This document shows positions 39,823 to 41,604 of a stretch of DNA of 41,604 nt, one piece after another (within the stretch, counting starts at the first letter, position 1; the number at the start of each line of letters is the position of its first letter). The notes beneath the pieces were generated by a model. It made no database searches. It was not told the DNA's origin and was given only the letters and a program-made list of their open reading frames with translations. The DNA is taken from positions 1 through 41,604 of the forward strand of contig DTSO01000022.1 of NCBI GenBank assembly GCA_012965315.1, read 5' to 3'. This DNA is from Phycisphaerales bacterium. Its GTDB lineage: Bacteria > Planctomycetota > Phycisphaerae > Phycisphaerales > SM1A02. The position numbers and the translations under genes are program-made.

Positions 39823-40821
39823 TCAAGTTGCTGTTGGTAAGGTTTCGATTAAGCTCGTCAAAATATCGTCGCAAGAAACGGCTTCCGCTTCTGCTTCAAA
39901 GTTCAAAATACATCTATGTCGCAGTGCAGGCAGAACAACTTTTCGAATGTCCTCAATTGAAACTTCTGTTCTACGTTCTAACAGAGCATTGACTTTGCCC
40001 GCGAGCACCAATGTCTGCGCAGCTCTTGGCGAAGCGCCAAACCGTAAAAACGATTTTACTTGCGGTGTTGCGAGTTGCTCGTCAGGGTGCGTTGCGAGAA
40101 CTATTCGGACTGCGTAATCCTGAACTTCGTTTGAGATTTCAACTTCCCGAACCACATTTTGATATGCGATAATTTTTTCTGTATCTAGAACACGGTGAAC
40201 ATCTGGCGTCTTACCACTCGTCGTTTTGTCGATAATTTCCATCAATTGACTTCGGCCAGAATAACCTACATGCAACTTAAAGAAAAACCTATCGAGTTGC
40301 GCTTCTGGCAATTGGTAGGTTCCCTCTTGTTCAATTGGATTTTGAGTTGCCATTACAAAAAATGGTTTCTTTAGCAAGTGTGTTTCCCCGCCAACTGTAA
40401 CTGTGCGCTCCTGCATTGCCTCCAATAGCGCAGATTGGGTTTTTGGTGTTGCACGATTTATTTCATCTGCAAGAACCATTTGTGCAAACAATGGACCCTT
40501 GCGAAATTCGAATTCGCGACCCTTTTCAGATTCAACAACAACCGTTGTGCCTGTAATGTCTGCTGGCATTAAGTCGGGAGTGAATTGAATTCGAGAAAAA
40601 TCTAAATCTAATGCATCGCTTAATGTTCTAATTAATAATGTTTTTCCAAGGCCTGGAACACCTTCGAGTAGTGCGTGACCTCCTGCAAACAAGCAGACTA
40701 GCACACCCTCGACAATTTCTTCGTGCCCGACAACCGCTTTGGCAATTTCAGTGCGCAACTTTGCATAGTCTTCGCTAAACGTATCTACTGCGGTATCGAG
40801 TGCTAGTGATTCTGTTGGCAT
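39823..40821 (-). CDS. MoxR-family AAA+ ATPase
   Basis: A 332-residue AAA_3 ATPase, a chaperone-like remodeller that usually works with VWA-domain and DUF58 proteins. It has Walker A LLEGVPGLGKTLLIRTL (about residue 54), Walker B MVLADEINRATPKTQSALLEAMQE, sensor FFVMATQNPIEQEGTYQLPEAQLDRFFFK, and the C-terminal lid with LRFGASPRAAQTLVLAGK. All are intact. The usual DUF58, transglutaminase and VWA partners are not adjacent; instead a barrel protein gene follows. The gene lies after the nusG terminator and has TATCGT 6 nt before its start. Confidence 0.94.
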   Translation of the reverse strand: MPTESLALDTAVDTFSEDYAKLRTEIAKAVVGHEEIVEGVLVCLFAGGHALLEGVPGLGKTLLIRTLSDALDLDFSRIQFTPDLMPADITGTTVVVESEKGREFEFRKGPLFAQMVLADEINRATPKTQSALLEAMQERTVTVGGETHLLKKPFFVMATQNPIEQEGTYQLPEAQLDRFFFKLHVGYSGRSQLMEIIDKTTSGKTPDVHRVLDTEKIIAYQNVVREVEISNEVQDYAVRIVLATHPDEQLATPQVKSFLRFGASPRAAQTLVLAGKVNALLERRTEVSIEDIRKVVLPALRHRCILNFEAEAEAVSCDDILTSLIETLPTAT

Positions 40822-40827
40822 GTGTGC

Positions 40828-40833
40828 ACGATA
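40828..40833 (-). promoter_or_regulatory. -10-like box TATCGT, 6 nt before moxR
   Basis: On the minus strand TATCGT is followed by 6 nt and the ATG at 40821. It lies immediately downstream of the nusG terminator, so moxR needs its own promoter here. Confidence 0.4.
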
Positions 40834-40847
40834 CCATCAAACCAAAC

Positions 40848-40878
40848 AAAAAACCCACGCTTCATGCATGGGCTTTTT
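40848..40878 (-). terminator. Rho-independent terminator after nusG
   Basis: On the minus strand CCCATGC (40872-40866) pairs with GCGTGGG (40860-40854) through one G-U pair around a 5-nt loop, followed by six T (40853-40848) and preceded by an A run. On the plus strand the G-U becomes an A-C mismatch, so it favours the minus strand. It ends nusG and separates it from moxR. Confidence 0.85.
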
Positions 40879-40898
40879 GATAGTTTTATACTGTTATG

Positions 40899-41604
40899 TT
40901 ATTCCGCTTTTTCGATCATCCAATATTCAATATCGATTTGTGTTTGTCGACCAAACACTGTAGAAAGAACTCGAACTACACCCTTCTCTGGGAATATTTC
41001 GTCAACTGTACCTTCGTATCCCATGAATGGACCATCTTTAATATTGACATGATCACCCTTGGCAAATTCAAGTTTGACTTCAGTGACTTCCTCAGGTGCC
41101 TGTGAGTCATACAACATTTTGTCGACTTCTTCGTCAGACATTGGAGTTGGCTTACCGGCCGTGCCAACAAAATCGCCAACCCCGGTTGTTTCTTTAATGA
41201 TGAAGAAAACATCTTGGGAAATGCGTGCGTCGACAAGTTTCATTTCAACAAAAATGTACCCAGGGTACAACTTTGTTTCTGTGATTTTCACTTTTTTATT
41301 TTTTGAAAGCGTCTTGGTCTTTTCAGTTGGAACCATGATGCGGCCAATGAGGCCTTGCACGCCTTCGATTTGCACTTTCTTTTCTAAAGCGTTTCGTACA
41401 AAATCTTCTTTGTTCGACGCAACGCGAAGTACAAACCAATTCATGCCTTCTTGTGTTTGAGGAAGCTCTTCATTGCTGGGCTCTTCGGTTTCTTGAGCAT
41501 CCTCAGCAATCAAATCAGTAGTAGTTTCAGAAACAGTTTCAGTGCTAACTTCTGGAGTTACTTCTGGAGTCGCTTCTGGAGTCGCTTCTGAAGTCGCTTC
41601 TGGA
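40899..41604 (-). CDS. nusG: Transcription termination/antitermination protein NusG with repetitive acidic N-terminal extension (5' end beyond window)
   Basis: NusG binds RNA polymerase and links it to Rho or the ribosome. The NGN domain runs from GMNWFVLRVASNKEDFVRNALEKK (with LYPGYIFVEM, a family hallmark), and the KOW domain is FAKGDHVNIKDGPFMGYEGTVDEIF to FGRQTQIDIEY. Upstream of MNWF the frame stays open to the window edge, adding at least 53 residues rich in Glu, Thr, Pro and Val (EATPEATPEVTPEVS). No ATG occurs in this part; a TTG at 41513 or the ATG at 41444 are other possible starts. The regular repeat and lack of stops suggest real coding. A terminator follows, and the usual rplK is not downstream. 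Confidence 0.9.
   Translation of the reverse strand, partial: PEATSEATPEATPEVTPEVSTETVSETTTDLIAEDAQETEEPSNEELPQTQEGMNWFVLRVASNKEDFVRNALEKKVQIEGVQGLIGRIMVPTEKTKTLSKNKKVKITETKLYPGYIFVEMKLVDARISQDVFFIIKETTGVGDFVGTAGKPTPMSDEEVDKMLYDSQAPEEVTEVKLEFAKGDHVNIKDGPFMGYEGTVDEIFPEKGVVRVLSTVFGRQTQIDIEYWMIEKAE
41553..41604 (-). repeat. 12-bp tandem repeat in the 5' part of nusG
   Basis: Four consecutive 12-bp units lie at 41553-41564, 41565-41576, 41577-41588 and 41589-41600, and a fifth begins at 41601. On the plus strand the unit is TGGAGTCGCTTC with one or two changes. In the nusG frame each unit encodes Glu-Ala/Val-Thr-Pro/Ser. The array may continue beyond the window. Confidence 0.9.

Follow-up and report, generated by a model that had tools for sequence, protein, structure and literature searches.

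An acidic, partly repeat-built N-terminal tail on the housekeeping NusG of Phycisphaerales: anatomy, distribution and possible role

The nusG locus at the contig end

The window analysed here is an entire contig of 41,604 nucleotides from the 1.91-Mb assembly (1,910,099 bases) of a marine bacterium of the order Phycisphaerales, and it breaks off within the gene nusG. This gene lies on the minus strand at 40899..41603, is 5'-truncated by the contig end and retains 234 visible codons. Its product scores 148.8 bits against the TIGR00922 equivalog model (cut-off 135.7), and both the NGN domain (PF02357; 41112..41444, minus strand) and the KOW motif (PF00467; 40968..41060, minus strand) exceed their profile cut-offs, giving the domain set of a housekeeping NusG. 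The specialised paralogues RfaH, LoaP and UpxY were rejected, as their scores of 52.8, 75.9 and 52.1 bits fall below the corresponding cut-offs of 144.5, 125 and 100. A genome search returned a single NusG match, so that this Phycisphaerales-type bacterium has one ordinary housekeeping NusG, encoded here.

An acidic low-complexity N-terminal extension immediately precedes the NGN domain (41445..41603, minus strand), with 53 visible residues of which 16 are D/E and none K/R. The sequence-only reading had counted at least 53 residues before the NGN domain, and this count was borne out by 53 codons of open minus-strand frame 5' of the ATG of the MNWF segment (A at 41444), the frame running on to the contig end. 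Two repeat arrays were detected within the extension by Tandem Repeats Finder, including a 12-bp tandem array of EATP-type units that touches the contig end (41549..41604, minus strand) and a weaker 12-bp array of 2.4 copies (41515..41543, minus strand). The contig break at 41604 thus falls inside the repeat.

DNA past position 41604 was sought in the same assembly using the secE-nusG stretch of the nearest relative, L032 (Phycisphaerae bacterium isolate SI073_bin101; 96% amino acid identity, complete gene), and was not found, so the true start of the window copy and the secE side of the gene are not visible. The start was therefore read in relatives. In L032, the gene order is EF-Tu, a small 50S-protein-like ORF, a tRNA-like stretch, secE, nusG and a MoxR-type ATPase gene; SecE, like the MoxR-type ATPase of the window, was scored with profiles, and the names of the EF-Tu, small ORF and tRNA features are putative, being a reading of the sequence. 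The L032 nusG begins with an ATG 15 nt past the secE stop and carries an extension of 60 residues. The earlier suggestion that the extension is the tail of an N-terminal fusion, for instance SecE-NusG, owed its appeal to the start of nusG lying outside the window, and it can be given practically no weight, since secE has its own stop upstream of nusG both in L032 and in other relatives, followed by a new ATG, which leaves no continuous frame. An artefact of sequencing in the repeat is likewise unlikely, because L032 has a comparable repeat within a complete gene.

In the window (39823-40899) and at the loci of this order, nusG is not beside ribosomal-protein genes, and in the genus a MoxR-type ATPase gene comes after it. 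Of the ribosomal-protein genes, rplK/rplA adjoins it in none of the 60 order loci with enough flank, and in 41 of 45 loci outside the order (tblastn). In several assemblies (G009, G007, G012, G031) the contig starts some 530-700 bases away from nusG on one side, a break that may fall among the EF-Tu and tRNA genes. In two other genomes the KOW end of NusG is matched a further time just downstream of nusG (G112:C3:657916-658083 and G024:C23:153159-153326), which look as if they were a separate or second KOW gene segment.

Translation and distribution of the extension

Comparison of the window with L032 over the 53 extension codons reveals nine synonymous and six non-synonymous changes (dN/dS ~0.18). 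Five of the six non-synonymous changes fall in the 19 repeat codons, and the remaining 34 codons have a dN/dS of 0.04, calculated from few changes, next to ~0.06 for the core. Pairing with the anti-Shine-Dalgarno sequence, calculated for 63 genes, has a median of -5.2 at the N-terminal ATG, 0 at the internal Met and -1.5 at random extension codons. Judged by the dominance of synonymous changes, together with the strong Shine-Dalgarno pairing at the N-terminal ATG and its absence at the internal Met, the extension is coding. The same evidence speaks against an untranslated upstream frame with NusG beginning at MNWF. That start is recommended by the retention of the internal Met in 62 of 65 genomes and by its use as initiator in extension-less relatives, but the Met is replaced by F in three genomes, and initiation there after a close upstream stop finds no support in a frame that is open and in relatives whose Shine-Dalgarno signal sits at the N-terminal ATG. 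We regard it as very improbable. As a matter of anatomy alone, an acidic, coding N-terminal tail on NusG can be proposed with high confidence from these comparisons.

The order was represented, besides the window's genome, by 65 genomes, of which 59 come from 60 relatives (G020 having no match) and six from the search of the class Phycisphaerae. An ATG-initiated extension of 28-170 aa is found in 63 of the 65; in L017 and L055 an extension is possible only with a GTG or TTG start, and all 65 genomes examined have room for one. Of these 63 tails, 61 carry a net acidic charge and two do not, the charge statistics omitting L017 and L055, which have no ATG start. The joint to the NGN domain follows a P-x4-G-M pattern, with P at -6 in 60/63, G at -1 in 63/63 and W at +2 in 63. 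Past this joint the core is almost invariant, and neither the sequence nor the length of the tail is conserved. An extended NusG had been presented as an oddity, an emphasis that does not survive these counts, as the tail is the rule in the order and a long NusG N-terminus is known in Mycobacterium tuberculosis (238-aa chain). A basic motif of ~30 residues ending in a GVAT-like sequence was also observed in the tails of 13 of 25 family members from other genera (L019, L026, L027, L043 and others); 11 of the 13 exceed all 100 shuffles in a leave-one-out profile test, and none was seen in the window's genus.

Outside the order, NusG matches were obtained in 118 of 126 class genomes, with eight lacking a match; 58 of these loci were read, and in the remaining 60 the open frame does not exceed 210 codons. 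An initial impression from the six best outside-order matches, that tails are absent there, was abandoned after 52 further loci were read: 22 of the 118 genomes have an extension of at least 40 aa, and all 22 extensions are net acidic. Family f19 alone spans tails of 0, 13-21 and 76-87 residues. A search of the phylum (199 genomes) covered open frames only. In a tree of 122 rows, built from NusG alone by a quick method and leaving out L072 with its truncated core, the order forms one group with support of 99, and no fewer than nine state changes are required to explain where tails are present. By this reconstruction the long tail has apparently been gained or lost repeatedly outside the order. 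Most of the class does without a long tail, so NusG as such can evidently function without one. In class members lacking the extension, the start coincides with the equivalent of the internal Met (MQWFVL), which suggests that the tail originated by recruitment of an upstream start: the start codon would have shifted upstream, the old initiator remaining as the internal Met, and translation in the window's organism would begin at an ATG just downstream of secE, beyond the contig end.

Tandem repeats and tail length

The main array of the window comprises 4.7 copies of its 12-bp unit with 90% matches, and the self-match observed in the 53-codon stretch was never reached in 300 codon shuffles (p 0.0033, the floor of the test). 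The array therefore exceeds what a composition of E, T, P and A would give, and the description of the extension as built on EATP-type 12-bp repeats stands, at least for part of its length. The tandem self-match reaches the same floor in 12 of 64 tails, where ~0.2 would be expected by codon shuffling, and duplicated units of other sizes occur elsewhere (24 bp in L003, 9 bp in L045 and 60 bp in L027). Tail lengths in the genus range from 36 to 87 aa, while the core of each of its 12 members measures 181 aa; outside the genus the core measures 181-189 aa, the truncated copy of L072 excepted.

The earlier proposal that the repeats could change length by slippage, and the comparison of repeat number among relatives that it called for, gave a divided answer. 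The duplications in 12 of 64 tails make slippage a plausible source of tail-length change, in keeping with the spread of lengths within the genus, but alignment of the window with L032 reveals no length difference across the visible 53 residues. Overall, the pattern speaks for recurrent growth through repeats, part of the tail length being gained by in-frame tandem duplication.

Possible role of the acidic tail

We propose that the extension forms a disordered, strongly acidic tail directly before the NGN domain. An AlphaFold model obtained from seven sequences (mean pLDDT 33.5) is uninformative, so the prediction of disorder is made from composition. The tail would be a charged, flexible arm, placed where NGN and the upstream DNA lie in the elongation complex, that weakens non-specific nucleic-acid contacts or engages basic partners; its composition would then matter, and its exact sequence and length would not. 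Such a tail is probably a weak electrostatic modulator. Taken as a whole, a disordered acidic tail on a housekeeping NusG serving as an electrostatic arm is a reading that we moderately favour; its functional component considered separately, namely an electrostatic function, is put forward tentatively. We think that the electrostatic arm is the most likely explanation, with a neutral tail next in rank.

A neutral tail would be grown by slippage, translated and tolerated, with no role beyond staying soluble. Its range of 28-170 aa beside an almost invariant core, the tandem duplications in 12 of 64 tails and the patchy occurrence of long tails across the rest of the class all speak for this reading. 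Against this stand the low dN/dS of the 34 non-repeat codons between close species (few changes), the presence of the tail in all 65 order members, counting GTG or TTG starts for two of them, and the retention of its acidic sign in 61 of 63. Moreover, acidic tails are not a general habit of this proteome as sampled: among 253 non-overlapping ORFs of the window's genome (281,902 of 1,910,099 bases, a 15% sample), NusG is the only one with such an acidic 40-mer. Against the electrostatic arm, the net charge of the core does not shift with the presence of a tail among class members (p 0.60, L072 left out), revealing no compensation. A neutral tail appears less likely than the electrostatic arm, which is the preferred reading.

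Long acidic N-termini also occur on the NusG of Streptomyces. The NusG of M. tuberculosis (PDB 8e74, 8eos) is likewise a housekeeping protein, with 48 residues before the NGN domain that are net acidic (11 D/E, 3 K/R); unlike the tail described here, these residues lack E/T/P tandem repeats, and they belong to another phylum. A phmmer alignment to 8e74_Z extends from query position 43 and chain position 29, within the low-complexity stretch, and makes no convincing case for homology of the two tails. In comparison with ordinary bacterial NusG as modelled by TIGR00922, NGN and KOW are common to both, and no part of the extension is covered by the model.

In position the tail also resembles eukaryotic Spt5N, which according to excerpts of PMC8886531 is acidic, mostly unstructured and located directly before NGN, as are the 53 residues with their 16 D/E and no K/R. 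There the acidic tail before NGN is described as binding histones and called unique to eukaryotic Spt5. The histone-binding motif is a feature of Spt5N; the Phycisphaerales tail is likened to it by acidity and position. Excerpts of the reviews PMC7819879 and PMC6391919 count an acidic N-terminal region among the traits of eukaryotic Spt5, and a bacterial tail is mentioned neither there nor in excerpts of PMC10990936, on NusG of M. tuberculosis. In our literature search on NusG N-terminal extensions, acidic tails and repeats, with subscription papers largely outside its scope, the Phycisphaerales tail was unnamed. Bacterial acidic NusG tails nevertheless exist, against the eukaryote-only view expressed in PMC8886531.

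A more specific version of this likeness holds that bacteria independently evolved Spt5N-like arms, and that the NusG tails of Phycisphaerae pair by charge with Lys-rich tails of an HU paralogue, holding basic nucleoid proteins during the passage of RNA polymerase. The window's genome does encode a second HU-family protein with a Lys/Arg-rich N-terminal tail (L140:4601-4969, on G000:C7; net +11), the net charge of this tail has a median of +9 in 51 order members and reaches +30 in G018, and histone binding by Spt5N (excerpts of PMC8886531) offers a precedent. Outside the order, the median HU tail charge is 4.5 in genomes with a NusG tail of at least 40 aa versus 2.0 in those with less than 13 aa (10 versus 16 genomes, uncorrected p 0.0008). 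However, the charges are uncorrelated among the 51 order members for which an HU sequence was taken (rho -0.17, p 0.23). The HU comparison as a whole omits G047 (no ATG), G176 and G188 (both lacking a NusG match), G110 (its HU gene lies at the edge of a contig) and G039. Outside the order, 12 of 22 long-tailed genomes have no strong match to the HU paralogue, its presence is unlinked to a long NusG tail (10/22 versus 25/96, p 0.12), and only three to eight supported independent pairs are available for a sign test (median p 1). This combined reading is improbable, and we treat the NusG-tail/HU pairing as a lead without phylogenetic support. If it were true, the elongation complex would pass basic nucleoid proteins along, as Spt5N does with histones.

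An acidic arm before the NGN domain was found in every order member read, recurs in the class and is also present on the M. tuberculosis NusG. The graded tails of family f19 provide a natural test set for the role of an acidic arm beside NGN. Should the tails turn out to be neutral, a core gene would still be shown to tolerate repeat-driven length change.
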